From: Lactobacillales bacterium | GTDB taxonomy: Bacteria; Bacillota; Bacilli; Lactobacillales; Streptococcaceae | Length of the DNA stretch: 64,000 nucleotides | Direction of reading: 5' to 3' | Assembly (NCBI GenBank): GCA_031261175.1 | Contig: JAISJW010000008.1 | Span: forward strand, 19,712-83,711 | In this document: positions 1 to 64,000 of the stretch, piece by piece | Layout of the letters: each line of letters begins with the position of its first letter | How positions within the stretch are numbered: position 1 is the stretch's first letter | Program-made: the position numbers and the translations under genes | The notes under the pieces: model-generated | Database searches by the model: none | What the model saw: only the letters and a program-made list of their open reading frames with translations | Told to the model about the DNA's origin: nothing

Positions 1-1486
1 CTTCAGCATCGCGGAATAAACGTTGAATTTTACGTTCTTCGATCGCGTTACCTTTTTGAACTTCTGAGCCAGCCGTTTCAACTGATTTCACAGTGTGAGC
101 TTTCGACGAACCAGTTGCCCCGCCGACACCATCGCGCCCAGTTGCGCCACCAAACATGATGACAGCATCGCCCGGTAATGGTTTTTCACGACGAACGTGA
201 GTTTTAGGTGCGGCACCAACAACGGCACCGATTTCTAAACGCTTAGCAACGTAGCCAGCATGGAAATATTCTTTAACGTAAGTTGTTGCAAGACCGATTT
301 GGTTCCCGTAAGACGAGTAGCCGTGGGCCGCCCCCTTCGAGATGACTTGTTGAGGTAACTTGCCTTCCATCGTTTCATTCACGGGTTGCAGAATGTTTCC
401 GGCACCGGTGATGCGCATCGCTTGGTAGACGTATGAACGGCCCGAAAGCGGGTCGCGAATTGCCCCGCCGACGCAAGTCGCAGCGCCCCCGAAAGGCTCG
501 ATTTCGGTAGGGTGATTGTGCGTTTCGTTTTTGAACATCAACAGCCAAGTTTCGTTCGTGCCGTCGATATCGACTTCGATTTCGACTGAGCAAGCGTTGA
601 TTTCGTCGGAAACTTCCATGTCGTCAAGGCGACCATTAGCGCGTTCATAGCGGCCGAAGACAGTTGCCATGTCCATCAAGGTTACAGGCTTCGCTTCGCG
701 TTTAAGCTCAGCGCGCATCGCAACGTATTTATCGAAGGTCGATTGCAATTGCGCCTCGAATTTCGACGCGCTGAAATCGATGTTTTTCAGCTCAGTTTCG
801 AACGTCGTGTGGCGGCAGTGGTCCGACCAGTAAGTGTCGAGCACTTTGATTTCCGTTTCGGTCGGGTTGCGTTTGATCGAACGGAAATGTTCTTGGATCA
901 ACAACAGGTCTGCGACTTCCATCGCCATGCCGTTGTCCGCTTTATATTTTTCGAACTCGTGATGAGTCGCATCCAGGAAGAAATCCAAAACGGGAATCGT
1001 TTTGTCAGAACTTGAGAATTCAGCTAGCTCAACGGCTTCCGTGATGTCTTTGAAGCGCGAATCAACCGGGTTAAGAAGGTAGTTCTTAATTTTGTCGAGT
1101 TCAGCCGCATCCACGTCATCGTTGACTAGGTAAAGTTGCGCCGAGTGTACTTTCACGTCGCGGTTTGCTCCTAGAAGGAACAGCGCTTCCTCAGCCGAAG
1201 CCGCGCGCTGGTCGAATTGCCCAGGAAGGGGTTCGATACTAAAAAACGCATATTTCGCCAAATAGGCCTCGATGTCTTCGATCAGCTTGTCGGTCACCTT
1301 TTCGCTGAAGACGTGGGCTTCGGCTTTGGCAAGGATGGCTGCGTCGACGTTGAAGGCATCATAGACTTGCACGAGCTTGATTTCTTTCAGGCTCGATAGC
1401 TGCAAATTATGATTCAACTCGCGTAATAATGCGTGGTCTTTAATTTTAAAATTCGCTTTTTTGGCTACAAAAATTCTCTTGTTCAT
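1..1486 (-). CDS. purL: Phosphoribosylformylglycinamidine synthase, N-terminal part (runs off left edge)
   Basis: FGAM synthase converts FGAR, glutamine and ATP to FGAM in de novo purine synthesis. About 495 codons are visible, starting MNKRIFVAKKANFKI at 1486 behind an AAGGAC ribosome binding site; the rest lies beyond the left edge. The reading frame is open throughout. The N-terminal sequence (RELNHNLQLSSLKEIKLVQVYDAF, given here in part only: VQVYDAF near residue 35), the DTYWSDHCRHTTF block, the FKNETHNHPTEIEPFGGAATCVGG block and the YGNQIGLATTYVKEY stretch match the long single-chain PurL of streptococci and clostridia, about 1240 residues, rather than the PurS/PurQ/PurL type. Purine genes are not otherwise present here. 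Identification is secure; only the C-terminal glutaminase half is unseen. Confidence 0.95.
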   Translation of the reverse strand, partial: MNKRIFVAKKANFKIKDHALLRELNHNLQLSSLKEIKLVQVYDAFNVDAAILAKAEAHVFSEKVTDKLIEDIEAYLAKYAFFSIEPLPGQFDQRAASAEEALFLLGANRDVKVHSAQLYLVNDDVDAAELDKIKNYLLNPVDSRFKDITEAVELAEFSSSDKTIPVLDFFLDATHHEFEKYKADNGMAMEVADLLLIQEHFRSIKRNPTETEIKVLDTYWSDHCRHTTFETELKNIDFSASKFEAQLQSTFDKYVAMRAELKREAKPVTLMDMATVFGRYERANGRLDDMEVSDEINACSVEIEVDIDGTNETWLLMFKNETHNHPTEIEPFGGAATCVGGAIRDPLSGRSYVYQAMRITGAGNILQPVNETMEGKLPQQVISKGAAHGYSSYGNQIGLATTYVKEYFHAGYVAKRLEIGAVVGAAPKTHVRREKPLPGDAVIMFGGATGRDGVGGATGSSKAHTVKSVETAGSEVQKGNAIEERKIQRLFRDAE

Positions 1487-1531
1487 TTTTCGTCCTTTAT
1501 GATATATGAATTTTGAAAATAATACCCTTTA

Positions 1532-1540
1532 ATTTTATCA
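1532..1540 (-). promoter_or_regulatory. Extended -10 promoter of purL
   Basis: On the minus strand the sequence reads TGATAAAAT, an extended -10 element, about 46 bases before the purL start. No convincing -35 and no PurBox (CCGAAC core) was found nearby. Confidence 0.45.
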
Positions 1541-1593
1541 TTTTCCCCCGGATTTTTCAATTTAAGTAGTTAGGATTAAAATTAAATTAAAAA

Positions 1594-1722
1594 GACATGA
1601 ATTTACATAAATTTGGTATGATATGAGCTGATTTCTACCAAATTCATGCACTATACTTTTTATCTTGCATGAATCTGGTAGAAAAAGGGCGATTTCGTAC
1701 GAAATTTATGTGAATTCATGTC
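1594..1722. repeat. 129-bp nested palindrome, element A (pairs with 61356-61484)
   Basis: The outer arms (1594-1614 and 1702-1722) match over 20 of 21 bases, and the inner arms (1632-1650 and 1666-1684) over 18 of 19. The centre is an AT-rich 15-mer. The arms are nearly the same sequence as the element at 61356-61484, which is also 129 bp. The inner arm ends in an inverted copy of the outer terminal word (CATGAATTT / AAATTCATG), so each half can also fold alone. Confidence 0.85.
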
Positions 1723-1746
1723 CCTAAGTCGGTTAGTCTTACAAAC

Positions 1747-1875
1747 CCGCCCTAGATGACAAGATTTTCGGAATTTTGTCCTAATTTTGGCAGTTGAGGG
1801 CGGGTATAAAATCTATACCCGCCCCGAAGTGCCAAAAATCGACCTTTTTTCTAAAAGTCCTGTCATCTAGGGCGG
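1747..1875. repeat. 129-bp nested palindrome, element C1 (pairs with 33056-33184)
   Basis: The outer arms CCGCCCTAGATGACA and TGTCATCTAGGGCGG are perfect over 15 bases. The inner arms TTTTGGCA...GGGCGGG and CCCGCCC...TGCCAAAA flank the centre TATAAAATCTATA. A second copy of the same 129-bp length lies at 33056-33184. It sits just behind the mraY stop and may act as its terminator. Together with element A it fills most of the 395-base gap between mraY and purL. Confidence 0.85.
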
Positions 1876-1881
1876 TTTTGT

Positions 1882-2856
1882 TTATAATGCGATCGCAATT
1901 ACGACCGCGATGGCTGAAGCTACTAGTCCGACGCCCCAGAAAACGAAATTGATTTTCCATTCCGACCAACCGACCATCTCGAAGTGGTGGTGGACCGGCG
2001 ACATTTTGAAAATACGGTTACCCGTGCGTTTGAAATGCCCGACCTGAATCATCACGCTCAGCGTTTCCAAGATATAAACCAGACCAATCAAAAGCAAAGT
2101 CCACTCCTGATTCAGCAAAACCGAAATCCCGGCAAGTAAAGCCCCTAACGACAGCGAACCAACGTCACCCATAAAGATTTTCGCCGGTTTGTGGTTGAAC
2201 ACTAAGAATCCGGCAAGCGAAGCCACAACTGTCAGACAGAACACAGCGATATTGTGCTGCCCTTGGTGCACAGCAATTATAGCATAAGCCCCAAAACTAA
2301 TGATTCCCAAGCCGCCAACCAAGCCGTCAAGCCCGTCCGTCAAGTTGACCGCATTCGAGAATCCGTTAATCCAAATCGTCACAAACGCAATCGCTATCAA
2401 CGTAATCAAAACATTCGACCAACCGAAAATCCACAGATTATCGCGCTGCGCGTTGAAATAAATCAGCAACGCGAAACCTAAACCGCCGATCAACTGACCG
2501 ACAAACTTCTGTCCACTTGTCAACCCTAAATTCCGGCGCAGCACGACTTTGATAAAGTCATCTAAAAATCCAATCACGCCGAACACAACCGCCAACGCCA
2601 TCAGCGGCCACACGCCCCAAGTCTTATCCGAACGAACGAAATAATCGAACAGCGTTGTCACCAAGATAGCAACCATAAAAATCGCGCCACCCATCGTCGG
2701 TGTCCCCGATTTCACTTGGTGCCAAGCCGGCCCCTCATCACGAATCTCCTGACCGCGCTTCAACTTCACCATCCACATAATGAACAGCGGCATCAAAATG
2801 ACCGTCAGCAGAAACGAAATCAACATCGTAAAAATCACAACTATTGTAAAATTCAT
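1882..2856 (-). CDS. mraY: Phospho-N-acetylmuramoyl-pentapeptide transferase
   Basis: MraY moves phospho-MurNAc-pentapeptide from UDP to undecaprenyl phosphate and so makes lipid I at the inner face of the membrane. The 324 residues form about ten membrane segments. The family motifs are present: GTPTMGG near residue 50, DDFIK near 100, NLTDGLDGL near 170, FNHKPAKIFMGDVGSL near 220 and the VHHHFE histidine motif near 290. The length is normal. The start has an AGTAGGAG ribosome binding site. It follows pbpX by 39 bases and is probably in its operon, the usual Bacillota dcw arrangement, although ftsL and mraW are missing upstream. Confidence 0.97.
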   Translation of the reverse strand: MNFTIVVIFTMLISFLLTVILMPLFIMWMVKLKRGQEIRDEGPAWHQVKSGTPTMGGAIFMVAILVTTLFDYFVRSDKTWGVWPLMALAVVFGVIGFLDDFIKVVLRRNLGLTSGQKFVGQLIGGLGFALLIYFNAQRDNLWIFGWSNVLITLIAIAFVTIWINGFSNAVNLTDGLDGLVGGLGIISFGAYAIIAVHQGQHNIAVFCLTVVASLAGFLVFNHKPAKIFMGDVGSLSLGALLAGISVLLNQEWTLLLIGLVYILETLSVMIQVGHFKRTGNRIFKMSPVHHHFEMVGWSEWKINFVFWGVGLVASAIAVVIAIAL

Positions 2857-2895
2857 AAATTACTCCTACTTGCCCGGCGCGTAGCGCCAAGCCCT

Positions 2896-5091
2896 TTACT
2901 TGCCAAGCACGACGCTCAGCACTTCATCTTTATCGAACTCGGTCGCGTACGGAATACTCTGCCCCGTCACGAGCCCGTCGCCCACAAACACCACCTTGAT
3001 CCGCAGGAAGTCACACACGCTCTTGACCTCCTCCTTCGTCCAATCCGTCATATCCGGCAGCGTCCGATTCCCGTCCGTAAACAGGAAAATCTTCTGATTG
3101 ACCTTCGCCTTTTTGTCGCCCGGCTTGAGCGACTGATTGATAATCGACGTCCCGTTCCCGATCACAACCGGGTGGAGCAGAGCCTGGCGGGCAAGTATCT
3201 GCGCGTCATTGTTCGACTTGCCGATATAGTTCCCAACGTCAGCCTTCGCCGCCGTGCTATAAGCGTTGGTCGCGAACGCGAACTCGTCCTCCGCGGCACC
3301 ACTCTCGTAGGCGGCCTGCACGATCGGATTCGCCACCGAGGCCATACAGCCCCGCGTGTCGTAATTCTTCGGCAGTTTGCACGTCAGGAAGAAGACGTAC
3401 TGCGGATCCTCCGTCGGAAAAATCTCGACGAACGAATACAGGTAATTCCCGTGAGGCAAGTAACCACCGTGGTTCTCATCGGCAACTTCGGCCGTCCCAG
3501 TCTTCGCCGAAGCGTGGAAACCGTTCGTTACGTAGTTGCTATAACCTGTCCCGTAATATTGGTCCTCGATCGTTCCGCGCATGATATCGAGCAGCTTCGC
3601 CGTCGTTTCAGCCGTCACCGGATGGCCCAGCGACTCAGGTGCGTAAACTTTTTCCTTACCCGTAATCGGGTCAACATATTTCTTGATAAAATGCGGTTCA
3701 AGCATTTCGCCTTGGTTGGCGATCGCCGTGAACCCGCGCAACATCTGCATCGTCGTCACTGTGATCCCTTGACCGTAGGCTGACATCGCCATATCGACCG
3801 GGTTCTGGAATTTCGGCAATTTCCCGCTTCCTTCGCCGAACAAACCAACATTCGTCGCCGTTCCAAACTCGAAACGTTTCAAGGAATTCGGCCACATCAT
3901 CTCGTCCTGAGCCCGCATGCGTTGTTCAAGAGTTACCATCCCGACGTTTGACGAGTTGGTCAGGGCCTGCGCAAACGTCAGCATCCCTTTACCATTATCC
4001 CAGTCCTTGATGGTTCTATCTTCGACGTTGATTTTCCCCGAAAGGAATCGTTCCTGATCGTTAAAAATATTATTCTGGATCGCCGTCGCCATCGTGAACA
4101 CCTTCATCGTCGACCCTGGCTCGTATGCATCCGACGTCTGCAGCGTGCGCCACATCGTGTTCTCGTCGAGTCCCTCTTTGTTATCGGGGTTGAAAGTCGG
4201 GCGTTGAACCATGGCAAGTATCGCCCCAGTTTTCGCCGACATCAGAACACCCGTCATATTTTCGGGCGTGTATTTTTCACAGCTCGCTTCGATTAAACCT
4301 TCGAGCATATTTTGCAGTTTTGAGTCGATCGTCGTGTAGATGTCTTGGCCATCAACGGCATTTTTCGTTTCACTCGAGCTTCCAGGTAATTCATTCCCGT
4401 ATTTGTCAACGGAGCGGACAATTGCCCCGTCCTTCCCGGCGAGGATGGTGTTGTATGACGCCTCGATGCCGAGCGTGCCGGAGATTTTGTTTTCTTCGTT
4501 TTTGATGTAGCCGATGAGGTGCGTCGCGAAGATGCCGTTCGGGTAGCTGCGGGCGGGGTTATCGGTGAAGACAATCCCTTTGATGTTCGCGTTTTTGAGC
4601 GCCGTTTCGAGCATTTTTTTCTGCTCGAAAGTGATGTTTTTCGCCGCCGTTCCGAACTCGACTTGGTACGCATCAGCCTTCGCTTCTTGCAGGTTTTTCA
4701 TGATTTTATCGGTTTCAACGCCGAGCACGTTCGTCATCACTTGGGCGAACGTGTAGTATTGATCTTTTTGGAGATATAGCGGTTTTCCGTGACCGTCGAT
4801 GTATTTCGTCGAGATGATCGCAACCACGTTATACGTGCGCGTTTCCTCAGCAATCGGATTTTCGTTGCGGTCGTAAATCGTGCCGCGCGGTGCCTTCATC
4901 GGAATTTCACGCGTATATTGCTCTTTCGCAAGCTTCGTCAAATCCTGCCCATAAGCCGAATTGGTCGCCGCAATCAACGTCACGCGCACAACAATTGTCA
5001 GCATTATCAAGATCATCGCGACGATCATCAACTTCGAGAACGCCTGCCTCGAAGAGGCGACTTGCCCTCTTTTGTCCTTCTTTTTTTTCAT
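2896..5091 (-). CDS. pbpX: Penicillin-binding protein 2X-type transpeptidase with C-terminal PASTA domain
   Basis: A class B penicillin-binding protein, which cross-links peptidoglycan at the division septum. The 731 residues show a short basic cytoplasmic tail, one membrane anchor at about residues 20-45, a dimerisation domain beginning at the APRGTIYDRN motif, and the transpeptidase domain. The active-site motifs are GSTMK (SxxK), SSN (SxN) and AKTGTA (KTG). At least one PASTA module forms the C-terminus. mraY follows directly. pflA lies divergently upstream, so the usual mraW-ftsL genes are absent and pbpX starts the unit. On the minus strand a TATAAT box lies in the 5092-5197 gap. The family is certain; the exact orthology to Pbp2x rests on gene order and PASTA. 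Confidence 0.93.
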   Translation of the reverse strand: MKKKKDKRGQVASSRQAFSKLMIVAMILIMLTIVVRVTLIAATNSAYGQDLTKLAKEQYTREIPMKAPRGTIYDRNENPIAEETRTYNVVAIISTKYIDGHGKPLYLQKDQYYTFAQVMTNVLGVETDKIMKNLQEAKADAYQVEFGTAAKNITFEQKKMLETALKNANIKGIVFTDNPARSYPNGIFATHLIGYIKNEENKISGTLGIEASYNTILAGKDGAIVRSVDKYGNELPGSSSETKNAVDGQDIYTTIDSKLQNMLEGLIEASCEKYTPENMTGVLMSAKTGAILAMVQRPTFNPDNKEGLDENTMWRTLQTSDAYEPGSTMKVFTMATAIQNNIFNDQERFLSGKINVEDRTIKDWDNGKGMLTFAQALTNSSNVGMVTLEQRMRAQDEMMWPNSLKRFEFGTATNVGLFGEGSGKLPKFQNPVDMAMSAYGQGITVTTMQMLRGFTAIANQGEMLEPHFIKKYVDPITGKEKVYAPESLGHPVTAETTAKLLDIMRGTIEDQYYGTGYSNYVTNGFHASAKTGTAEVADENHGGYLPHGNYLYSFVEIFPTEDPQYVFFLTCKLPKNYDTRGCMASVANPIVQAAYESGAAEDEFAFATNAYSTAAKADVGNYIGKSNNDAQILARQALLHPVVIGNGTSIINQSLKPGDKKAKVNQKIFLFTDGNRTLPDMTDWTKEEVKSVCDFLRIKVVFVGDGLVTGQSIPYATEFDKDEVLSVVLGK

Positions 5092-5162
5092 ATATATTGG
5101 CCATTTCTAAACGCAGTTTTTGTTAGAGTTAATTATACCTTAATGCGCGCGAGTTTTCAACC

Positions 5163-10302: not shown

Positions 10303-11712
10303 CTAATCCTTGATAACAGTTAAGTAATAAAGCGCCCTCGTCATCGCTACATATTTCTCGTTATGCGTCATTCCTTCAGGGTTTACAAACAATTTTGGAT
10401 ATTCAAAACCTTTACTTTCAGCAGGCGTAATAATTTCAGAATTGGGTCTAATTTCCATAACTTTTTTCGCAAATTCGGATTCCTTATCGCTGACAACCAT
10501 AACAACTATGGCTTTTTCAGGATATTTAGTCATATTTTCAAAAAGCTCTTCGGTGGTTAGTTTTTCAACCTCGAATTTCCCTTCAAGAGGTGATTGAATA
10601 TCCATTTTCAACGCCTTGCTTATATAGTCGCAAATCTGTTTAGTATTTCGATAATCAATGTCGAATTTCTTGATTTCTTCGATACCTAAATCCTTGATAT
10701 CATCCCATGATGAAAGCCCGCGCCACGGAGTTAGGTTTTGATCTATATCCCCATAAATATTGAACACCGGATTATTATTTATTTTCTTTATCAATTTATA
10801 TTCAGTAGGTGAAATATCTTGCCCTTCATCTATATACAAAGCTTTATTTCCGCACTTTTCACCTAGTGGTCCATTAACCTCAGATAGCGCAAGCATCAAC
10901 AAGTACAAATCATGTCGGTAAAATTCATTATGCCCTAAATTAGCAATTTTAAACTCATCGCGCAAACGCTGAATTCTCTCGCCTATCAAAGTTTTTGTGA
11001 CATATTGGAACGATTTGTAGTCAATCGTTTTTTCGATATAATTCGCATTGCTCTTCGTTTTGTATTTCTCCGCAACTGCTTTGTTGACTCCAAGTGCCCT
11101 AGCCTTGTCCGCAAGCTTAGAAATTTTTATGATCCAATCATCAGTTGTTGTTTTCTGCAAGGTCGATAATTGGTGAATTTCAGCCGCGATATCCTGTTTC
11201 TTAGATTCGATTTCCGCCGCGTATTTCTTAAAATCATTCTGAATTATATTAAAGAAGCTCGGTGCGTAAATTCTTTCCAAATACTCAGCGGGCAAGTCAC
11301 CTTCGTTAGGATTAACGGTTATTTCATCAACCTTAAAAATCACACCGCTCTTGTTTTTTTCGCTATTGCTTTCCGCTATTTTGAAAGATAATTCGTGGTC
11401 ATACTTCTCGATAATACTTGCATAATATTTCTCTAGCGAATATAGTTGAATGTTGTTATCTTTCAACTCCAATTCGCCAAAAAGGTTTCGCACATAATCC
11501 ACAAATTCCTCATTCGGTGTAACTAGCGCAACTCGACTCCATGCGTAATCAGGATTGTTGTAAGCCAAGTATGACGGACGGTGCAGTAGAATTGCCGTCT
11601 TACCGCTTCCTGCGCACCCTTGAATGATAAATGATTTATCTATCTTTTCATAACTCGCTTCGGTCTGCGTTGAATCCATTGTTTTTATTATATTACTAAA
11701 ATCAAATTTCAT
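10303..11712 (-). CDS. HelD-like UvrD-family ATPase, C-terminal half
   Basis: HelD proteins are superfamily 1 motors that remove or recycle stalled RNA polymerase. These 469 residues hold the motor core: Walker A GCAGSGKTAILLHR near residue 34, Walker B ALYIDEGQDISP near 290, GDIDQNLTPWRGL near 320, FDIDYRNTKQI near 350, and a motif VI-like VAMTRALYYLTVI at the very end. The upstream gene supplies what looks like the HelD N-terminal region and overlaps it by 11 bases in the +1 frame. AGGAG lies about 14 bases before the ATG, so coupled reinitiation is likely. The region is AT-rich compared with its neighbours, which suggests transfer. Either a true two-subunit HelD or a recent frameshift. Confidence 0.75.
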   Translation of the reverse strand: MKFDFSNIIKTMDSTQTEASYEKIDKSFIIQGCAGSGKTAILLHRPSYLAYNNPDYAWSRVALVTPNEEFVDYVRNLFGELELKDNNIQLYSLEKYYASIIEKYDHELSFKIAESNSEKNKSGVIFKVDEITVNPNEGDLPAEYLERIYAPSFFNIIQNDFKKYAAEIESKKQDIAAEIHQLSTLQKTTTDDWIIKISKLADKARALGVNKAVAEKYKTKSNANYIEKTIDYKSFQYVTKTLIGERIQRLRDEFKIANLGHNEFYRHDLYLLMLALSEVNGPLGEKCGNKALYIDEGQDISPTEYKLIKKINNNPVFNIYGDIDQNLTPWRGLSSWDDIKDLGIEEIKKFDIDYRNTKQICDYISKALKMDIQSPLEGKFEVEKLTTEELFENMTKYPEKAIVVMVVSDKESEFAKKVMEIRPNSEIITPAESKGFEYPKLFVNPEGMTHNEKYVAMTRALYYLTVIKD

Positions 11713-12943
11713 CCAGCATCCACACTCCTAATTCTGACTCTCCTGCACTTCTTTCTGCAAAAATCAACGCTCGTTGGTATCTTTCAAATTCTTCTGAAGT
11801 TCTTATAACTTCAACTTGAGTTAATTTCTGATTATCCAGTATAACGCCCAAAAGATTTGTAACACCTTCATGCGTTTTTTTTGCACGCAATATCATAGGC
11901 ACTTCCGCACGCCAATCTAACAACTCAGCATCTTTCAACAATCCATCACGATTAATTTCATAGGTTACTCCGCTAGTCTTTTCGCCAACATAAAAAGATG
12001 TACCTTCATATTGAAATTTCATGTAATAAGGATCAATTATAAATTCTGATAAGCCATCCAAATACTTTTTAATACCCACGGCCTTTTCTTTATTCTTAAC
12101 TGCCTCGCCTAACTTTTCAATGTCCGTTTCTATTTTAAACGCATTAAATTCAGGTTTTTCGCTTTCTTCTTTTAATTCCGCTATCTTTGCGTTAGTTTTG
12201 TCAATAGCATATTCCAGCGAGACATTTTCACTTTTAAATATTTCTTCTTCATCCAAAGAGTTTATATTATTTTTTATTACTTCTTCATCATTACTAACAT
12301 TTTTAAATTTAAGCGCAGCATCTCGACTAGTAGTACTTCTAGAATTATTAACGTATGGAGTTTTTCCGACAACGGTTTGAACATTCTTATCTTTGGGCGG
12401 CGCTTTGGGAGAAACTGGTGGCACCTCACTTGCGCTTTCTATTTCAAAACTGGCATCCTCTAATTCGTTATTTTCAGCATAAGAATAACCATCACAAAAA
12501 CCATCAATATATTCTTCATATAATTCTATAATGCCATTTGTATCTTCTGGTGTGAAGAATTCTTCATCCTCCCTTAACCACGTTGGAAAACCACCTGGCA
12601 TACCTTCCACCAATGCATTTTCGCCATCTTCAAATCCCTCAGCATAAACGCCCGAACTTTTATTGCTTTGCTTTTTTGGTACTACTTCTTCAACCAATAA
12701 AATTTGCAGCAACTTGTATAAATGGGTTATTCCCTCTAAATCTATTCCAATGCTTCCCGCTCCAGTTTTAGGCTCATCCCCCGACCAATATCTTATATCG
12801 AATTTGAGATTTGTCCCATTATGCCCTGCAATGTTAACTTCTATATTTTTGCCGCCAGATTGAAATGATCCAATATGTTCGTTTACATATAGATAATTAT
12901 CACTATTTCTTCCGTACTTATAATTCCCTGAATTTCTTGCCAT
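11702..12943 (-). CDS. HelD-like N-terminal protein with a possible PC4-like domain
   Basis: The 413 residues have three parts. Residues 40-85 (LKFDIRYWSG, then GSIGIDLEGITHLYKLL) recall the PC4/YdbC single-stranded DNA-binding fold. The middle is linker with two YxxGFxDG-type motifs and a Pro/Lys stretch. From about residue 230 a coiled coil leads into DPYYMKFQYEGTSFYVGEKT and AELLDWRAEVP, which match the RNA-polymerase-binding N-terminal part of HelD (ePYFgrI, YIGk, DWRaPi). No ATPase motifs are present; they lie in the following overlapping gene. I infer a split HelD carrying an additional nucleic-acid-binding domain; the PC4 similarity is from memory of the family and weaker. A clear ribosome binding site (AGGAG) precedes the start. 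Confidence 0.6.
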   Translation of the reverse strand: MARNSGNYKYGRNSDNYLYVNEHIGSFQSGGKNIEVNIAGHNGTNLKFDIRYWSGDEPKTGAGSIGIDLEGITHLYKLLQILLVEEVVPKKQSNKSSGVYAEGFEDGENALVEGMPGGFPTWLREDEEFFTPEDTNGIIELYEEYIDGFCDGYSYAENNELEDASFEIESASEVPPVSPKAPPKDKNVQTVVGKTPYVNNSRSTTSRDAALKFKNVSNDEEVIKNNINSLDEEEIFKSENVSLEYAIDKTNAKIAELKEESEKPEFNAFKIETDIEKLGEAVKNKEKAVGIKKYLDGLSEFIIDPYYMKFQYEGTSFYVGEKTSGVTYEINRDGLLKDAELLDWRAEVPMILRAKKTHEGVTNLLGVILDNQKLTQVEVIRTSEEFERYQRALIFAERSAGESELGVWMLDEI

Positions 12944-23879: not shown

Positions 23880-23922
23880 AAAAAAGCGGGCAAGTCCCGC
23901 GCGCAAAGCGCGCCAACTTGCC
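23880..23922 (-). terminator. rpoBC terminator built on an inverted GGCAAGT pair
   Basis: On the minus strand GGGCAAGT, a GCGCGC stem and ACTTGCCC form one long hairpin, followed after two bases by a T-run, nine bases behind the rpoC stop. Confidence 0.85.
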
Positions 23923-46521: not shown

Positions 46522-48750
46522 TTATTTTTTACTAATCGGTGCAAGTTCGGCAAGTAGTCTTTTTTGACCCTGATCCGGGAATTCGACTAGCAATTCAGTC
46601 ATATCATCGGCCGTAACCTCGATCACTTCACCTTCGCCGAAACGTTTGTGCACAACGATGTCGCCAACCGCCCAATCGACCTCGGCCTTAGCCTTAGTTT
46701 CCTTAGTTTCAACCGGCTTGGCTTTCCCAATCCGAATCCCACTCGGCGAGCTGCCCGGCGCGTCTAACAATTCGCGGTCAATCTCCGAAATAAACCGGCT
46801 CGGCGGATTGAACTGCGTCCGCCCGTACAGCATCCGCGTTCCCGCGTGCAGCAGATACAGCTCGCGTTCCGCTCGCGTAATTCCAACATAGGCAAGTCGA
46901 CGCTCCTCTTCGAGACCTTCTTGACCGTTTTCATTAAGTGCCATCCCGCTCGGGAAAATATTTTCTTCGACACCTGCGATAAAGACGACTGGAAATTCCA
47001 GCCCTTTCGCTGCGTGCATCGTCATCAAAACGACCTCTTGACCGTCCACGACGTTATCGATTTCACTCATCAACGAAACGTCATTTAGGAAATCGGAAAT
47101 GCGTTCGAGACCATCAACCGTTTCATCCGTGCGCTTATCGAATTCTTTAGTTACACTTAAAAATTCTTCCAAGTTTTCGATGCGCGCTTGTGACTCAATC
47201 GTGTTTTCCCGTTTCAGTTCAGCTTCGTAGCCACTTTCTTTAATCAACGTCTGCACTGTTTCAGTCAGACTCAAGTCCTGCGCTTTAGTTTTCCAATTTT
47301 CAAACGTTGCGCGTAACGCTCCCAAAGTGTTAGCCAATTTAGCCGAAACACCAGTCGGCAGAGCGTTCGCCATAATATTATAAACTGACTCATCATACGC
47401 CGCTGCAAATTCGTTCAATTTCGATACGCTTGTCGCCCCTATCGCGCGCTTTGGCACATTGATGATTCGGTTCAAGCTAATCGAATCCGCAGGGTTCACC
47501 AAAACTTTTAAATAAGCGATAATATCTTTAATTTCTTTGCGGTCGTAGAACTTATGCCCGCCAACAATTCGGTAGGGAATGTTCGATTTAATCAACATTT
47601 CCTCGACCGTTCGACTTTGGGCATTCGTGCGATACAAAACCGCGAAGTCGCGCAGCGAGTGCTTGCCCGATGCCAAACACTCTTGGATTTTTTCGATAAT
47701 GAATCGGCCCTCATCGCGCTCGTCCTTGACGTGCATCGACACGACCTTATCGCCCGCAACGCGGTCGGTCCACAGCGCCTTGTCCTTGCGCTTTTTATTG
47801 TTTTTAATCACGCAATTCGCGACGTCGAGAATGTTCTTCGTCGAGCGATAATTCTGCTCGAGCAACACGACCTTCGCCGCAGGATAGTCCTTCTCGAAGT
47901 TGAGAATGTTGTTCATATTCGCGCCACGCCATGCGTAAATGCTCTGATCGGCATCCCCGACCACGCAAATATTTTGCTTTTTATCGGCGAGCGACTTCAC
48001 CAGATTGTACTGGGCATCATTCGTATCTTGATACTCGTCGACGTGAATGTAGTCGAACTTGTCCTGGTAATGTTCGAGCACCTCTGGGTGCAATTTGAAC
48101 AGCTTGATGACGTTCATAATCAGGTCGTCGAAATCCATCGAATTGTTGCGCACAAGCTCAGCCTGATATCCCGCATAAACAGCCGCATACTTCTCCATAA
48201 TCGGCTGACGCCCATAAATAGCCTTGTATTCCGCGACCCCGACCAGATTATTTTTCGCATCGCTAATCTTATTGATCGCAGTCTTCGGCGAAATCATCTT
48301 CTCGTCGTAATTTAGGCGCTTGATCACGCCTTTCAGCACGCTCTTTTGCTCCGCCGGATCGAGAATTGAAAAATTGCTCGTGAAGCCAATTTTCTCCGCA
48401 TCACGCCTAAGCATCCGCACGCACATCGCGTGAAACGTCGAAATCCAGACGTCCTGCGCCGCTCCACCTAGCAGATCGCCGACCCGCTCGCGCATCTCGC
48501 GCGCCGCTTTATTCGTAAACGTAATCGCCAAAATCCGCCACGGCTGCACGTATTTCCCCTTAATCAGGTACGCAATCCGGTGCGTCACCACGCGCGTCTT
48601 CCCACTGCCGGCGCCCGCCATAATCAAAAGCGGTCCCTCCGTCGTCGAAAGCGCCTCCAGCTGCCGCGGGTTCATCCCCACGCTCAGCTCGCCCAGCACG
48701 CCCTCATTCTCACTGCCACTACGGTAAATCTCATTATCAATTTTATACAT
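46522..48750 (-). CDS. pcrA: ATP-dependent DNA helicase PcrA/UvrD
   Basis: The 742 residues have superfamily 1 motifs in order: Q motif and Walker A (LNPRQLEAL-type MNPRQLEALSTTEGPLLIMA, then GAGSGKTRVVTHR near residue 46), LAITFTNKAAREMRERV, HVDEYQDTNDAQYNL near 235, VVGDADQSIYAWRGA, LEQNYRSTKNIL, MTMHAAKGLEFPVVFIAG near 575 and RRLAYVGITRAERELYL near 620. A C-terminal Tudor-like domain ends with VGDIVVHKRFGEGEV. PcrA removes RecA and RNA polymerase and works in repair and plasmid replication. GAGG precedes the start. Confidence 0.97.
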   Translation of the reverse strand: MYKIDNEIYRSGSENEGVLGELSVGMNPRQLEALSTTEGPLLIMAGAGSGKTRVVTHRIAYLIKGKYVQPWRILAITFTNKAAREMRERVGDLLGGAAQDVWISTFHAMCVRMLRRDAEKIGFTSNFSILDPAEQKSVLKGVIKRLNYDEKMISPKTAINKISDAKNNLVGVAEYKAIYGRQPIMEKYAAVYAGYQAELVRNNSMDFDDLIMNVIKLFKLHPEVLEHYQDKFDYIHVDEYQDTNDAQYNLVKSLADKKQNICVVGDADQSIYAWRGANMNNILNFEKDYPAAKVVLLEQNYRSTKNILDVANCVIKNNKKRKDKALWTDRVAGDKVVSMHVKDERDEGRFIIEKIQECLASGKHSLRDFAVLYRTNAQSRTVEEMLIKSNIPYRIVGGHKFYDRKEIKDIIAYLKVLVNPADSISLNRIINVPKRAIGATSVSKLNEFAAAYDESVYNIMANALPTGVSAKLANTLGALRATFENWKTKAQDLSLTETVQTLIKESGYEAELKRENTIESQARIENLEEFLSVTKEFDKRTDETVDGLERISDFLNDVSLMSEIDNVVDGQEVVLMTMHAAKGLEFPVVFIAGVEENIFPSGMALNENGQEGLEEERRLAYVGITRAERELYLLHAGTRMLYGRTQFNPPSRFISEIDRELLDAPGSSPSGIRIGKAKPVETKETKAKAEVDWAVGDIVVHKRFGEGEVIEVTADDMTELLVEFPDQGQKRLLAELAPISKK

Positions 48751-49239: not shown

Positions 49240-50091
49240 CTAAAAATGCATGCTCGACATCGATGCGATGACGATTACGCCGATCACGGCTCCAAAACTC
49301 AGTGCAACCGGGGCAAGTAGCTTCCCGGCGGCGCGTTCACCCTCTTGCAAGAGGTGCTGCTTGTGCTCCATCCAAATCTCCCCACTTTGGCGCGTCAGAA
49401 ACTCGACGAGCTCGGCGCTCCCGCGGTCCATCGTTTGGGCAAGTGAGCGGGTGAATTTGCGGATTTCGTGAAGTTCGCTCTTGCGGGCGACGTAATCAAG
49501 CGCTTCGGTGTCGCTCGCGCCATTTTCGATTAGGCCGACCGATTCTTTGAAGAGATTGTATAGAGGCGCATCTTCACTGGTTGCAGTGATTTTAATAGCC
49601 TCGCTGAGGATCATCCCGCTACTGGTTAGAATGGCTAATTTACTGATGACTTCAGGTAGCTCGCGCAGATATTCGCGTTTTAATTCCTCGATTTCGCGGC
49701 GCATGCGTTTTGTTAAATAAAAATATAAAACGGCGCTCATAACGATTCCGAAAACGATGAACGGCATCCGCATCCCCGTCGAGACAAATGACGACAAGAG
49801 AATCGTCACAATAGCGGCTAGGCTTGTCAGTGTGATTGCTTGAGCCATGATTAAATTGGCGTAATAATCGGCGTAAGTTTCGTTATATTTGATGCGCGTC
49901 GCTTCTTTCAAGCGGCTTAAATCAAGGGTTACAAACGGCAGACCTAGGATGTAGAAGCCCACCGTGTAAAGGTCTTTAAGCGGAAATTCGTAGTTTGTGA
50001 TGTTTTCAACAAGGTAGCTTTTGCTACGCGAAACAATTAGAAGCAGAATAAAAACGACAACTAAAATGTTTCCTAAAATATTTAATTGCAT
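49240..50091 (-). CDS. tadC: TadC-like type II secretion/pilus F-family membrane protein
   Basis: The 283 residues have membrane helices near residues 5-20, 85-105 and 110-130 and one at the C-terminus, with a T2SSF domain between (REYLRELPEVISKLAILTSS then GMILSEAIKI). With TadB it forms the inner-membrane platform of Tad/Flp pili. It follows tadB by 8 bases. No TadA ATPase, prepilin, peptidase or TadZ is here, so the pair must either join components encoded elsewhere or be left over. Confidence 0.78.
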   Translation of the reverse strand: MQLNILGNILVVVFILLLIVSRSKSYLVENITNYEFPLKDLYTVGFYILGLPFVTLDLSRLKEATRIKYNETYADYYANLIMAQAITLTSLAAIVTILLSSFVSTGMRMPFIVFGIVMSAVLYFYLTKRMRREIEELKREYLRELPEVISKLAILTSSGMILSEAIKITATSEDAPLYNLFKESVGLIENGASDTEALDYVARKSELHEIRKFTRSLAQTMDRGSAELVEFLTRQSGEIWMEHKQHLLQEGERAAGKLLAPVALSFGAVIGVIVIASMSSMHF

Positions 50092-50099
50092 TTTCTCTC

Positions 50100-50960
50100 C
50101 TATTTGATATCGACGATTTTTTCGCCCATACGGTAAGCTACGACGAAGACGACAAGAGCGACAGTCATTGACACCACTCCGATCATCGAGGCAAATGCAC
50201 TCGCAAACATATCCGCTGAATATTTCAAAAGCGCAATAATCCCAATCGGGGCAATTGTCATGATTTTATGTTGCATTTTATTCGAGGTTACCGATGTTTC
50301 GATTTCTTCAGAAATTGCCACTTTTTCGGTGATGATATCAGTCGTGCGGCGGATGATTGTGCGCATATCTCCACCCTTTGAGTGGATTAACGAGAACACG
50401 TTCGCAAAACTTTTAATATCGCGATTTCCCGTGCGTTCGCCTAGGTCGATCAACATTTGCTCAACCGGAATCCCATTTCGGTAGGCTTGATTGATTTGCT
50501 CGACCTCAATCGTCATAAAGCCATCTTTTCCGAATTGGGCAGTCATATCGTTTTCTAAAGCGCCGAACGCTTTTTCGATGTTGCTCCCCGATGTGATCGA
50601 AGATGTCAACGACTCCAACATATCACGAAACTGCAATTGGATGAGCATATTTCTTTTATCGATGAGACTTTTTTTGAAGATGGGAATTGCCACGCGGGCC
50701 CCGATAATTGCCCCAGCCACCATGACGACGGTGTTGCTAATCGTTGTAGCCAGTGTCGCTGCGCCGTCGACTTTGAAGAGTCCGCCGTAAAAAATGGACG
50801 CGACGAATGCGCCGCCGAGCATCGAAATCGTGTAATACAAGTAGAATTGCGTTTGGTTGAAGTTGTAGACGGTGTAGTCAAGGATGTCGTTGTTGAGTAG
50901 GTTGGCTGTGGTTTTTTTGGCCTCTTTGATGCCGAGGATTTTTCTGATTAAGTCTTTCAC
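50100..50960 (-). CDS. tadB: TadB-like type II secretion/pilus F-family membrane protein
   Basis: The 286 residues show two N-terminal helices (residues 40-95), a cytoplasmic T2SSF domain (LQFRDMLESLTSSITSGSNI then EKAFGALENDM) with SLIHSKGGDMRTIIRRTTDI, and two C-terminal helices. This is the first of the two Tad platform genes, 23 bases behind pth. It is probably in one transcript with leuD and pth. Confidence 0.78.
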   Translation of the reverse strand: MKDLIRKILGIKEAKKTTANLLNNDILDYTVYNFNQTQFYLYYTISMLGGAFVASIFYGGLFKVDGAATLATTISNTVVMVAGAIIGARVAIPIFKKSLIDKRNMLIQLQFRDMLESLTSSITSGSNIEKAFGALENDMTAQFGKDGFMTIEVEQINQAYRNGIPVEQMLIDLGERTGNRDIKSFANVFSLIHSKGGDMRTIIRRTTDIITEKVAISEEIETSVTSNKMQHKIMTIAPIGIIALLKYSADMFASAFASMIGVVSMTVALVVFVVAYRMGEKIVDIK

Positions 50961-52264: not shown

Positions 52265-52296
52265 CGGGCAAGTAGCGCCCTCGACTTGCCCGTTTT
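52265..52296 (+). terminator. Leader hairpin from an inverted GGCAAGT pair before the methyltransferase gene
   Basis: CGGGCAAGT (52265-52273) and ACTTGCCCG (52284-52292) form a perfect 9-base stem followed by TTTT. It lies in the 5' leader, about 45 bases before the start codon, and could attenuate. Confidence 0.55.
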
Positions 52297-55302: not shown

Positions 55303-55347
55303 AAAACCCGCTTTGGCAAGTCAATTGCCTCTAAGCGGGTTTTTTTG
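55303..55347. terminator. Terminator with GGCAAGTCAATTGCC loop, shared by the peptide and first regulator genes
   Basis: AAAACCCGCTT / AAGCGGGTTTTTTT stem; the interior holds GGCAAGTCAATTGCC, the same 15-mer as in the terminator at 58450-58493. Confidence 0.85.
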
Positions 55348-58443: not shown

Positions 58444-58449
58444 TAAAAA

Positions 58450-58493
58450 GAAGAACCTACTAGGCAAGTCAATTGCCCGGTAGGTTCTTTTTT
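58450..58493. terminator. Terminator with GGCAAGTCAATTGCC loop, shared by the secreted protein and regulator 3 genes
   Basis: AAGAACCTAC / GTAGGTTCTT stem with T-runs. It carries the same interior 15-mer as the terminator at 55303-55347 though the stems differ. Confidence 0.85.
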
Positions 58494-59521: not shown

Positions 59522-59875
59522 AATATTCCCCTTCAAATTATATATTTAGTATATATTAACAACTTATGTTACCGTTTTCAAACAAAAGTTTTATATTCGC
59601 AACTTTCTTAATTTTGATGTTTTTTGATTCTTTTTAGCTGTGATTTTTGGTATTTATATAGGAGGTATATATTTAAAACTATAAAACAATAACCCTTCGG
59701 TTAATTTTTAAATATATATTAAGATGCCTTTTTTTGGAAAATGGGATTTTTATCGGTGGCACCGATATTTTTGCGGGTTTTGCGCGCCATCGGGCGCGCG
59801 GGACTTGCCCAAGAGATTTTAAGGTTTTTAAGGGGTAATTTTCTGTTATAATGTAGGCATTCAAAGGAGATTTTT

Positions 59876-60019
59876 ATGTCTAGAAAAATGCTATGGGTCA
59901 TCGTGGTGACTCTGACTGTCGGGATTTTGGGTGGAACGTGGCTGATGTCGGCTAAGGGCGCTGAGGTTGTTCAGTCGTTTCAAACTTCGCTGCAACACTC
60001 TTTGGCGGTTAATAAGTAA
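59876..60019 (+). CDS. Small membrane peptide, 47 residues
   Basis: MSRKMLWVIVVTLTVGILGG is a basic start plus one membrane helix, followed by a polar tail ending LQHSLAVNK. AAAGGAGA and an upstream TGTTATAAT give good expression signals. It may be a membrane peptide or a signal-peptide precursor. It lies just upstream of rarA, which has its own promoter. No family recognised. Confidence 0.55.
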   Translation: MSRKMLWVIVVTLTVGILGGTWLMSAKGAEVVQSFQTSLQHSLAVNK

Positions 60020-60078
60020 GCTTTCGATTTGCTCGACTTCACGTTTTGTGATATAATTAACAAAACGGAGGTTTTAGG

Positions 60079-61353: not shown

Positions 61354-61355
61354 GC

Positions 61356-61484
61356 GACATGAATCTACATAAATTCCGTATGAAAACGGCTTATTTCTAC
61401 CAAATTCATGCAGTGTAAATTTTACATTGCATTAATTCGGTAGAAATAAGCCTTTTTTGAACAATATTTATGTAAATTCATGTC
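61356..61484. repeat. 129-bp nested palindrome, element B (pairs with 1594-1722)
   Basis: Outer arms GACATGAATCTACATAAAT and its near complement; inner arms GGCTTATTTCTACC and GGTAGAAATAAGCC extended by AAATTCATGCA. The centre is TGTAAATTTTACA, itself a palindrome and identical to that of element E. It starts two bases behind the rarA stop. Confidence 0.85.
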
Positions 61485-61505
61485 GAAAACCCGTCGGCTC
61501 TCAAT

Positions 61506-61640
61506 AAATGCACCGTTTTTGTGAAATTTTTAAAGTTTTCGGCTGTTTTTGTGAGGTAACGGTGCATGTAAATTTTACACGCACCGTTACCTCACAAAAA
61601 TAGCTGTTTTCTCCTAAAAACTCACAAAAACGGTGCATTT
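61506..61640. repeat. 135-bp nested palindrome, element E
   Basis: Outer arms AAATGCACCGTTTTTGTGA and its perfect complement (61506-61524, 61622-61640). The inner arms, starting GTTTTTGTGAGGTAACGGTG, repeat the outer word in inverted order. The centre is TGTAAATTTTACA. It lies 21 bases from element B, forming a doublet like A and C1. Confidence 0.85.
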
Positions 61641-61641
61641 T

Positions 61642-61845
61642 CTAAAATTTCAAAATCAACACCCAAATAACGATCAATAGCAAAATCAATACGCCAATCG
61701 CCTTCGTCAAGTTATTCGAAAGAACCTTCGTCTTCTCCTCGATTTCCTTATCGCGCTCGATTTTTTGATTGACCGCACCGACGTCATCAAGCGTTAGCTC
61801 TTCATCTTCGACCTCGTCACTGTGAATCCTCGACATTCTCGACAT
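61642..61845 (-). CDS. Small membrane-anchored protein, 67 residues
   Basis: An acidic and charged N-terminal part (DEVEDEELTLDDVGAVNQKI) is followed by a single C-terminal helix (AIGVLILLLIVIWVLILKF), as in tail-anchored proteins. The start overlaps the Nudix stop by one base. No family recognised. It ends the kinase-Nudix operon. Confidence 0.7.
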   Translation of the reverse strand: MSRMSRIHSDEVEDEELTLDDVGAVNQKIERDKEIEEKTKVLSNNLTKAIGVLILLLIVIWVLILKF

Positions 61846-62408
61846 TACAGTTCCCCCTTAAGCGTCAAAAGCTCGAACAACTGCACGGCGTAAAGAGTTT
61901 TCGCATCACAGATCAATCCGCTCTCAACTTCCGCCAAAGCCTCCGCCAAAGTCAACTCGTAAACCTCGATTACTTCGTCGTCATCCATCGGCCGCGGATT
62001 TTCCACGCGTTCCAAGTTCTTCGAATAGTAAACGTGCACCAACTCGTTGCAGAATCCGATCGCCGAATACATACTCGCCACCCGCACTAAATCCACCGCC
62101 CGGTACGCCGTTTCCTCTTCGAGCTCGCGCGCCATAGCACCCGCTAAATCGGCGTTCTCCCCGACTTCGAGTTTTCCGGCTGGAATTTCCAAAGATACCC
62201 GCTCAATCGCCTTGCGATATTGTTTCACCAACACCAATTTTTTCTCCGGCGTGAACACGACCGCCCCGACTGCTCCTTTGTGGAACACGAGTTCGCGCTT
62301 TGAAACCCCGCCGTTAGGCAAGTCAACATCATCCACGGCAACCGTGAAAATCCGCCCTTCAAAAATCGTTTCGCGGTGCGTTGTTACTTCTTCAAATTTA
62401 TCTTTCAT
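61845..62408 (-). CDS. ADP-ribose pyrophosphatase-type Nudix hydrolase
   Basis: The 187 residues have the NudF/YqkG plan: an N-terminal strand domain (TIFEGRIFTVAVDDVDLPNG), EIPAGKLEVGENADLAGAMA near residue 85 leading into the Nudix box with RELEEETAY, and IGFCNELVHVYYSKNL after it. It likely cleaves ADP-ribose to AMP and ribose 5-phosphate. The start at 62408 follows GGGAG by six bases and overlaps the kinase stop by 11 bases. Confidence 0.9.
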   Translation of the reverse strand: MKDKFEEVTTHRETIFEGRIFTVAVDDVDLPNGGVSKRELVFHKGAVGAVVFTPEKKLVLVKQYRKAIERVSLEIPAGKLEVGENADLAGAMARELEEETAYRAVDLVRVASMYSAIGFCNELVHVYYSKNLERVENPRPMDDDEVIEVYELTLAEALAEVESGLICDAKTLYAVQLFELLTLKGEL

Positions 62409-63813
62409 TTTTTTCTCCCAACTCAACTTCGTTAATTTTTTCTTTCAATAAATTAAGCAGCGGCGCCTTCATTTCTTTGGCTATATCGAGCTTCAACACC
62501 AACCCGTAATCCGCCTTGAAATCTGGCTTCTTCGCCACTTTCAACGTCGCATCTCGCATTTTGCTCAAGTCGTATTCGGCCACTTTTAAATAAATTTTAG
62601 CCAGCGCGTTCACCGGTGCATTTTCTTCGCTATATTCGCTCACCAACTTGAAATAGTAGCGCGATTCCGCCTCGCCGCGCAGTGTGTTTTCCTCTTCGCG
62701 CTTCGTGAAGAACCAGTTCAACGTGCCCATTCTAAAGGCTAACTTCGCGAATTTATCGCTTTTTTCCAACTTCGGCAAGTGAGCCTCGAAAGCCGATTCC
62801 AACTTTTCGCGTTCAAAATCGCTATAAATTCCATCCGCTTCATCGTTTTTAATAATCTGAGTAAAAGGCGCCACAGAACCTGGACGAACCTCAATCGCCT
62901 TATACAACTGAACATTCGCAGCGCTGACATCATTAGCTCGATCAGCCGCCTTCCAATATTCATTGTAGGTTTCGGTCGAATCAAATTGGAATACTGCAAT
63001 AGCAGCCAGCGCTAAAATCGCAACTCCGCCGAGCAAATACCAATATTTTTTCGTATTTCGCTGTGGCTTATATTCACGCAAATCACGAATCATCGCCTTC
63101 ATATCAGGATAGCGTTTAGCGGGATCTTTTTGCGTCGCCCGGCGCACGATTTTATTCAACCGATGCGAGTTTTCCACCTCGAAACGACCGTCCGGTTTCT
63201 TCCCAGTCAAAAGCTGCCAAAGCGTCACTCCCAACGCGTAAACATCGACCTGTGGCCCGTACTCCGCCGTAGACTGCTCAGGCGCAGCGTAACCTTTCGT
63301 CCCCATCTTCGGAGCGCTCGCAATCACCTCGGGCACATTCTCAATCGCCGTCCCAAAGTCGATCAACTTCACGTGGTCGCGCTTGTTCAGCATAATATTG
63401 TGCGGCTTGATATCCCGGTAAATAATCCCCAAATTATGCAGATAATCAACCGCCTCAGCGATTGTCAAAACGTAGCGCGCCGCATCCGCCGGCGACACCC
63501 GCCCAACATCCTGCAACGTCACCCCTTCGACGTAATCCATCACGATCAGCATCGTGTTCTCATCGTCGTGAATGTCCACCACACGGGGAATTGCTGGGTG
63601 ATCGAACTGCGTAATGATCTTCGCTTCCGCGACAAAATTCCCGACGATCACATCGAGATTTTTCACGTTATTCGCGTTCGCTTTGTCGATCTCCTTGATC
63701 GCCCACAACTTGCCCATTTTGGTGTCGCGCGCCTTATAAACCCGGCTCATCCCGCCGACGCCGATCTCCTCGAGGATCTCGTATTTCCCAAGCACAATTC
63801 GCAATTCATTCAC
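62398..63813 (-). CDS. Membrane Ser/Thr protein kinase without PASTA domains
   Basis: A Hanks-type kinase of 471 residues. The kinase domain spans residues 8-230: IGVGGMSRVYKARD (Gly loop), WAIKEI (Lys), IIYRDIKPHNIML (catalytic loop, Tyr replacing the His of HRD), LIDFGTA (DFG) and GTKGYAAPEQ. One membrane helix (YWYLLGGVAILALAAIAVF) lies near residue 255. The outer domain of about 195 residues looks helical and TPR-like, not PASTA, so this is not PrkC/StkP. No PP2C phosphatase is adjacent. The Nudix gene and a tail-anchored protein follow in an overlapping operon. Confidence 0.9.
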   Translation of the reverse strand: MNELRIVLGKYEILEEIGVGGMSRVYKARDTKMGKLWAIKEIDKANANNVKNLDVIVGNFVAEAKIITQFDHPAIPRVVDIHDDENTMLIVMDYVEGVTLQDVGRVSPADAARYVLTIAEAVDYLHNLGIIYRDIKPHNIMLNKRDHVKLIDFGTAIENVPEVIASAPKMGTKGYAAPEQSTAEYGPQVDVYALGVTLWQLLTGKKPDGRFEVENSHRLNKIVRRATQKDPAKRYPDMKAMIRDLREYKPQRNTKKYWYLLGGVAILALAAIAVFQFDSTETYNEYWKAADRANDVSAANVQLYKAIEVRPGSVAPFTQIIKNDEADGIYSDFEREKLESAFEAHLPKLEKSDKFAKLAFRMGTLNWFFTKREEENTLRGEAESRYYFKLVSEYSEENAPVNALAKIYLKVAEYDLSKMRDATLKVAKKPDFKADYGLVLKLDIAKEMKAPLLNLLKEKINEVELGEKNER

Positions 63814-63835
63814 CTACTTCGTTTCGCTATGTATA

Positions 63836-63844
63836 ATTATACCA
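63836..63844 (-). promoter_or_regulatory. Extended -10 promoter of the kinase operon
   Basis: The minus strand reads TGGTATAAT 23 bases before the start. Confidence 0.6.
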
Positions 63845-63941
63845 CAAAAAAGCCGGCGATTTTACTCGCTCGGCTGGTTTAAATGGCTCTTTGTCAACTG
63901 ATGGGGTTTTCCAATTTTTGATAAATAGAGTTAAGCAGCAG

Positions 63942-63980
63942 AACTCAAATTCGTTGAGACATCGACGGATTTGAGTTTTT
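63942..63980. terminator. Terminator-like hairpin at the right edge
   Basis: AACTCAAATTCGT / ACGGATTTGAGTT stem with one mismatch, then five T on the plus strand. No gene is seen in 63845-64000; what it ends lies outside the window, possibly a minus-strand element or an insertion-sequence end. Confidence 0.5.
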
Positions 63981-64000
63981 GTATTGTGATCACTTCTACG

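Follow-up and report, generated by a model that had tools for sequence, protein, structure and literature searches.

GGCAAKT, a strongly enriched seven-base word and putative DNA uptake sequence in a Gram-positive genome of the Lactobacillales

The window analysed here, a stretch of 64,000 nucleotides from a Lactobacillales bacterium (contig JAISJW010000008.1, positions 19,712 to 83,711) that we infer to belong to the Streptococcaceae, carries among others rpoC, a PcrA/UvrD gene and a pair of membrane-protein genes, and is studded with a seven-base word, GGCAAGT, present on both strands. A first-pass annotation had taken this word for a possible DNA uptake sequence, estimating a roughly tenfold over-representation from 44 + 33 copies counted by eye. 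The strong excess stands and the figures change: an exact search returns 46 GGCAAGT and 34 ACTTGCC, 80 copies against the 6.2 predicted once the sites are masked in a second-order Markov model, hence a 13-fold enrichment. On the plus strand GGCAAGT starts at 2131, 3190, 3455, 4213, 5347, 9825, 11291, 16309, 17111, 18020, 18446, 18587, 18704, 19409, 21534, 23889, 24148, 24997, 26026, 28985, 29123, 29566, 34015, 34692, 36525, 38278, 38471, 39155, 46549, 46891, 48811, 49312, 49438, 51590, 52267, 54067, 55315, 55492, 55633, 55654, 56355, 57143, 58463, 58804, 62317 and 62774. ACTTGCC, the minus-strand word, starts at 358, 2868, 2898, 3216, 5060, 5746, 6917, 8230, 9064, 15536, 16824, 19238, 23916, 27346, 28459, 28916, 29437, 30045, 31348, 34347, 37083, 37140, 38744, 39233, 41710, 43599, 44428, 48905, 52284, 54830, 55079, 57804, 59803 and 63708. 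The eight examples first listed lie within three bases of true copies (3190, 9825, 18446, 24148, 34015, 46549, 52267 and 55633), and the word does occur, as claimed, in both coding (64/80) and intergenic DNA (16/80; simple open reading frame caller, at least 90 amino acids). The maximal-order Markov z for GGCAAGT in the window is only 4.8, because the nested 6-mers are inflated by GGCAAGT itself.

The single word form first proposed was incomplete, as it missed a second allele, GGCAATT, with 46 exact copies in the window between 458 and 58477. These are 22 plus-strand GGCAATT, starting at 3815, 9740, 13968, 14718, 15238, 22568, 22757, 24814, 25634, 28288, 31222, 33713, 34836, 36165, 37685, 41663, 44999, 45238, 50250, 51191, 54265 and 57035, and 24 AATTGCC (minus-strand word), starting at 458, 1215, 4420, 6171, 11590, 14444, 14502, 16334, 19622, 20095, 20819, 22571, 26284, 33195, 34839, 41270, 42202, 42895, 46284, 50313, 50685, 50706, 55323 and 58471.

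The genome containing the window (1,699,190 bases in 33 contigs) holds 1,015 GGCAAGT and 978 ACTTGCC, that is 1,993 copies or 1.17 per kb, in line with the 1.2 per kb first estimated. The reversed word, taken as a control, occurs 122 + 126 = 248 times, eight times less often. This control is not neutral: the ratio of word to reversal is mostly 1-3 in 335 other genomes of the family, with a maximum of 4.9 (G003, 123/25). Part of the eightfold ratio is therefore base composition, and density is the better measure. A genome sample was assembled from the window and 23 further pieces, 464,686 bases in full, the first 404,686 readable bases serving for the Markov test. In the latter, GGCAAGT is observed 494 times against 35.0 expected (14.1-fold); in the former it is the commonest 7-mer, with 586 copies. 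GGCAATT (316 observed, 45.4 expected, 7-fold) is the sole clearly enriched one among the 21 one-letter variants. The other 20 amount, summed by hand, to 803 observed against 779.5 expected, or 1.03-fold, the highest being GGCAAAT at 1.41-fold. The word is therefore best written GGCAAKT (K being G or T), at about two copies per kb. It is sharp-edged, with one two-valued position and the remaining variants near background. A longer consensus was sought around GGCAAGT in the genome sample and none was found: the flanks carry at most 0.16 bit at every position printed, with a faint A-rich trend upstream and a C/G-rich trend downstream. Without common flanks, a single repeat family is rejected as the source of the word. 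Coverage is even, none of the 88 tiles of 5 kb being devoid of GGCAAGT, and the distances between neighbouring copies are near random (coefficient of variation 0.94).

Within the sample, GGCAAGT has 498 of its 586 copies in genes, at 1.21 per kb, and the other 88 between genes, at 1.67 per kb, as delimited by the same simple caller. Copies fall in all six reading frames, most rarely (6 copies) in the one that would spell Thr-Cys. When the codons of 400 genes are shuffled synonymously, 53.4 copies are expected and 496 are observed (9-fold, z 59; a repeat run gave 52.0 and z 67); for GGCAATT, 334 coding copies face 74.6 in the shuffles. Codon usage or protein content thus cannot explain the enrichment of GGCAAGT and is rejected as its cause. 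The enrichment is real and strong, and it is a signal at the level of DNA. The density of GGCAAGT falls to 0.77 per kb, from 1.15 to 1.37 in the remaining fifths, in the one-fifth of genes whose codon usage is least typical. Such a drop would follow if newly arrived genes had gained few words, and the lower GC content of this fifth may contribute. Known uptake words are likewise described as rarer in newly acquired segments (PMC7811141, in part).

The orientation of the copies bears on another class of short, frequent words, the polar motifs that steer recombination (Chi) or segregation (FtsK-orienting polar sequences, KOPS). Chi is polar with replication. GGCAAGT, seven letters long and present about once per kb, resembles Chi, which is also short and frequent, and the near-equal forward and reverse counts of the whole genome are no test of polarity, because the contigs are arbitrarily oriented. 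Local GC skew in the sampled DNA provides one: the G-rich strand has 251 copies and the C-rich strand 300 (p 0.04), a slight excess opposite to the leading-strand expectation and far from Chi-like polarity. Strong polarity, a genome-wide count near the Markov expectation and confinement to one repeat family had been named beforehand as outcomes that would refute an uptake signal; none of the three is observed. GCGCGTG, which we take to be the lactococcal Chi word, is only 1.21-fold enriched in the coding DNA of this genome; in samples of the relatives G004, G017 and G062 it is (as CACGCGC/GCGCGTG) among the most enriched 7-mers. A Chi-like or KOPS-like role for GGCAAGT is accordingly highly improbable, and its identity with such a motif is rejected for want of strong polarity.

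Inverted pairs of the word in terminators had been reported as a trait of many intergenic copies. Such pairs do exist, and "many" is an overstatement: intergenic hairpin pairs number nine in 465 kb, four of them in the window, where three fold far better than their shuffles and one does not. Directly after rpoC, at 23889..23922 on the minus strand, an inverted word pair makes a terminator-like hairpin followed by CGCUUUUUU and ending in a U run (-32.9 kcal/mol, z -5.30). Two more terminator-like hairpins, at 55315..55329 and at 58463..58477, have GGCAAGT and AATTGCC at their top, separated by 8 bases (z -4.84 and -5.56, respectively). The remaining intergenic pair, at 52267..52290, is weak as a terminator (z -1.67, 15 of 200 shuffles folding as well). 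Words that face each other within 40 bases make 49 pairs in the genome sample, most of them in genes; in 26 of the 49 the two words abut or overlap to give a palindrome, GGCAATTGCC for example, and 9 are the intergenic hairpin pairs. By comparison, about 55 percent of high-confidence terminators in Neisseria contain the uptake word, as given in the accessible part of PMC1852404. Could GGCAAKT then be nothing but a favoured terminator stem, a dispersed repeat or a family of transposable elements? The few terminator-like hairpins would suit this explanation, as would the behaviour of a word of the relative G008 described below; the location of 498 of the 586 copies inside genes and flanks that share nothing make it barely credible for this genome.

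The word was sought in the family, using one word per whole-genome search over the 335 other genomes. Kinship labels and the make-up of this family, in which one genus supplies 284 of the 336 genomes, mostly of about 2 Mb, point to the Streptococcaceae. None of them has GGCAAGT at the density of the genome studied here, the next being G007 with 742 copies in 2.8 Mb (0.27 per kb). Among 71 named loci, mostly from Bacilli and drawn from the 80 of a UvrD scan after nine shorter than 13 kb had been left out, none has any word at a comparable density, in a survey sensitive only down to about one copy per kb. A screen of 41 relatives, based on samples of 11 to 140 kb each (one further piece being too short for use), in which an absence proves little, revealed instead other enriched words in G025, G032 and G008. 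In G025, CGTCAGAA totals 391 + 462 = 853 copies against 52 for its control. In the 58 relatives searched for it, it reaches 36 to 108 copies in four genomes of the G025 genus, and the highest counts otherwise are those of G019 (136/45, word/control), G011 (117/80) and G032 (92/20). In G032, CTGTCAGC totals 738 + 722 = 1,460 copies against 42, followed among the 58 relatives by G042 (338/128), G054 (186/73), G008 (178/20), and G011 and G026 (160/37 each). The third word, GTCAGTAA, searched in 18 genomes, counts 761 copies against 122 for the control in G008 and 584 against 156 in G024. It falls to 66 and 72, under their controls, in the congeners G017 and G030. The sample of G024 showed local arrays only, and it is the whole-genome count that reveals GTCAGTAA there. 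These enriched words of some family relatives are new here.

As with GGCAAKT, coding copies in the samples exceed those of synonymous shuffles: 63 against 8.2 for CGTCAGAA in G025, 34 against 1.8 for CTGTCAGC in G032, and 30 against 4.2 for GTCAGTAA in G008. The three words differ in the share of sampled copies found in inverted pairs, 0/67, 16/42 and 32/55, respectively, and the intergenic density of GTCAGTAA in G008 (2.13 per kb) is eight times that in genes (0.26 per kb). In view of these shares of inverted pairs, the words of G008 and G032 may partly be something else, of terminator or repeat origin. A pure terminator stem is contradicted, for GTCAGTAA, by the 30 genic copies. The letters GTCAG are common to three of the four family words and absent from GGCAAKT. 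To note, an excess of CTGTCAG/ACTGACAG-type words appears in the 20-kb samples of G059, G065, G068 and, more weakly, G060 (L269, L275, L278 and L270), and GTCAG words may be more widespread in the genus of these four. In G025, the 9-mer CCGTCAGAA is also enriched (23 against 2.5), and it stands one base apart from CCGTCTGAA, a part of the DNA uptake sequence (DUS) of Neisseria, by chance perhaps, or by convergence.

A word made for use inside the cell would leave some of the same traces. A solitary methylase, a nucleoid-associated protein, or a repair or chromosome-organising factor could recognise GGCAAKT, which would then have been built up by selection on chromosome function and not by uptake, in the manner of HIP1, the highly iterated palindrome of many cyanobacteria. 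Even coverage and near-symmetric orientation fit any genome-wide mark, the absence of excess in 20 one-letter variants fits strict recognition, and the palindrome GGCAATTGCC is in strong excess in the genome sample (25 sites, 0.5 expected). Like HIP1, GGCAAGT is a short word repeated across a genome; HIP1 is palindromic and common to many cyanobacteria, whereas the main form GGCAAGT is non-palindromic and was seen at this density in one genome only. Its low density in all 335 other family genomes, a few of which have other words, is better accounted for by a specificity that changes fast than by a housekeeping factor. We consider such an intracellular mark unlikely.

A set of competence genes is present. 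A comG operon lies on contig C4, with ComGA, ComGB, ComGC and ComGD above the NCBIfam cut-offs (ComGB and ComGD just above) and a probable ComGF scoring below; neither ComGE nor ComGG was identified here. ComEC is encoded on contig C18, beside comEA and a dCMP deaminase-like gene (assigned by eye). ComEC and the ComEA repeat domain pass the NCBIfam cut-offs, and the full ComEA model stays below. A weak second ComEC-like match at C8:13248-13484 (79 residues, three stops, E 1.4e-4, below cut-off) may be due to chance. The pilins were compared over 14 loci, ComGC being found in 13, ComGD in 14 and ComGF in 13. ComGF presents a difference: where all 12 relatives aligned (12 of 12) have F-R-K, this genome has Y-Q-K, without the arginine, and the protein is net acidic, with 9 Lys and Arg for 18 Asp and Glu. 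DNA binding in S. pneumoniae depends on two charged residues in each of ComGF and ComGD, R102 and K103 of ComGF being needed for it (PMC12040237, accessible part); from our own reading of that paper, R102/K103 may be the F-R-K pair. The other word-bearing genomes keep F-R-K; no receptor change common to all was therefore found, and Y-Q-K is a lead for this genome only. No receptor for the word was identified among the comG pilins compared or among prepilin-like frames, for which the 465-kb sample alone was scanned with a simple pattern.

The lack of this arginine, the acidic charge and low score of ComGF and the two minor pilins that were not identified would also be expected if GGCAAKT were a relic of a past uptake system, competence having since been lost or altered in this strain. 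The frames of comGA, comGB, comGC, comGD, comGF, comEA and comEC are all open, yet, and a decaying word should leave many one-letter variants, 20 of the 21 of which are not in excess. This makes a relic improbable.

Among these explanations, the one we regard as probable is that GGCAAKT is an uptake word in a Gram-positive, with dialects in the family as in Neisseriaceae. The initial reading as an uptake signal is partly supported: the enrichment, the lack of strong polarity and of repeat flanks, the presence of competence genes and the other words in relatives all speak for it; the weak terminator trait and the 20 variants without excess do not, nor does the Tad-like gene pair of the window, which is not ComG. 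In the proposed mechanism, the ComG competence pilus, perhaps with ComEA, would bind double-stranded DNA that contains GGCAAKT better than other DNA, a ComG minor pilin or ComEA being the candidate receptor. Competent cells would prefer such DNA, and word-bearing fragments would be taken in and recombined more often. By this molecular drive, point mutations that create GGCAAKT would spread wherever protein or regulatory constraints permit, until both orientations pepper the genome. In related species that carry different words the receptors would differ in specificity, and the words would be dialects. A wider proposal, which we put forward tentatively and hold to be close to an even call, is that several lineages of Streptococcaceae have evolved sequence-specific uptake, independently or ancestrally, each with its own word (GGCAAKT; CGTCAGAA; CTGTCAGC; CTGTCAGTAA). 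Gram-positive ComG pili could then be capable of self-recognition, their specificity switching from one neighbouring species to the next, as it does in Neisseriaceae.

Known uptake words are described from two families, Neisseriaceae and Pasteurellaceae, in the available text of PMC5031613. They have hundreds to thousands of copies, no bias of orientation along the chromosome and an intergenic excess (PMC1939737, accessible part). GGCAAKT is like the DUS of Neisseriaceae in its copy number, its two orientations and its presence in coding and intergenic DNA, in some inverted terminator pairs, and in the different words across species of one family (PMC3630211 and PMC1852404, in the parts available); such DUS dialects occur within the single family Neisseriaceae (PMC3630211). 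It differs by its Gram-positive host, by a length of 7 bases, one of them two-valued, where the DUS has 10-12, and by unrelated letters. Moreover, terminator pairs are here a minority, most one-letter variants show no excess, and no homologue of ComP, the receptor in Neisseria, was identified among the comG pilins compared. Two types of uptake signal sequence (USS), AAGTGCGGT and ACAAGCGGT, exist in the single family Pasteurellaceae, with perfect copies in great excess and no orientation bias, as, its slight strand bias apart, in this genome (PMC1626085 and PMC1939737, excerpts). The AT-rich downstream flank of the USS is absent here, where the flank is rather C/G-rich, the letters are unrelated and the pilus is the Gram-positive ComG. 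Among the open-access papers listed, covered by their titles and the opening of their abstracts, none shows an uptake word for a Gram-positive. The nearest case is Veillonella, of the Bacillota, which prefers genomic DNA and for which a screen for words of at least 10 bases found none (PMC5397411, in part).

Several observations weigh against an uptake word. According to Table 1 and equation 2 of PMC1939737, in the part accessible, singly mismatched words are over-represented 3-fold in H. influenzae (764 of them, beside 1,471 nine-base words without orientation bias) and, in the gonococcus, 5.8-fold, an excess that 20 of the 21 variants of GGCAAGT lack. At 7 bases, the motif is shorter than the DUS (10-12) or the USS (9). 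Intergenic hairpin pairs are few, which makes the terminator trait weak in this genome. Neither GGCAATT (0.68 intergenic against 0.82 coding per kb) nor CGTCAGAA in G025 (0.25 against 0.51) is denser between genes, and the words CTGTCAGC and GTCAGTAA are partly open to the other origins given above. The slight strand bias by GC skew counts here as well, as does the distribution within genes, 221 sense against 275 antisense (p 0.02); for known uptake words, one orientation is described as commoner in reading frames (PMC2346458, excerpt). The comparison set for GGCAAKT holds no genome of the same genus. Inspection by eye of ComGC, ComGD and ComGF reveals nothing in which the remaining word-bearing genomes jointly differ from word-less relatives. 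The comGA frame of G025 (L251), the bearer of CGTCAGAA, contains an in-frame TAG, through sequencing error or loss. Finally, in most competent species the uptake of DNA is indifferent to sequence, and DNA binding in S. pneumoniae is discussed as based on charge (PMC12040237, accessible part).

If the word works as proposed, self-recognition in transformation would have evolved once more, and apparently in the family of the pneumococcus. The pneumococcus itself is a model of transformation without sequence preference. Species with the word, without it and with different words would constitute a natural experiment for the pilin or ComEA residues that read DNA sequence, and the question of why uptake words exist would become testable outside Gram-negatives.

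Besides the word, the window encodes on its minus strand, at 49240..50960, two T2SSF-domain membrane proteins of 283 and 286 amino acids (Pfam T2SSF, 33.9 and 32.2 bits for a cut-off of 25.2), with no NCBIfam model above its cut-off. They had been annotated as a Tad platform pair; the T2SSF match is what such a pair could give, and they are perhaps Tad-like. They are not part of the ComG pilus, whose platform protein is encoded elsewhere. Two further TadA/VirB11-like ATPase loci are present in this genome, L201:6771-10025 and L202:7190-10575 (contigs C26 and C4), one of them with a prepilin peptidase. Together with the T2SSF pair, these loci suggest that Tad-type pili exist besides the ComG pilus.

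The PcrA/UvrD protein of the window (46522-48750) forms a long branch outside the family in a tree of 46 of the 106 UvrD proteins extracted, and its best named match, among the matches listed and with own and very near records left out, is 53 percent identical. Unlike it, ComEC falls inside the family in a tree of the 18 sequences with a long frame. The long branch may reflect fast evolution or transfer. In a tree of 13 ComGA sequences, the protein of this genome lies adjacent to the family, its neighbour being G037, which comes from a different one. Lastly, a low-GC gene pair on the minus strand at 10303-12943 associates a UvrD-like helicase, with weak GajB-like matches, with an overlapping 413-residue protein of no family, and is possibly a defence island.

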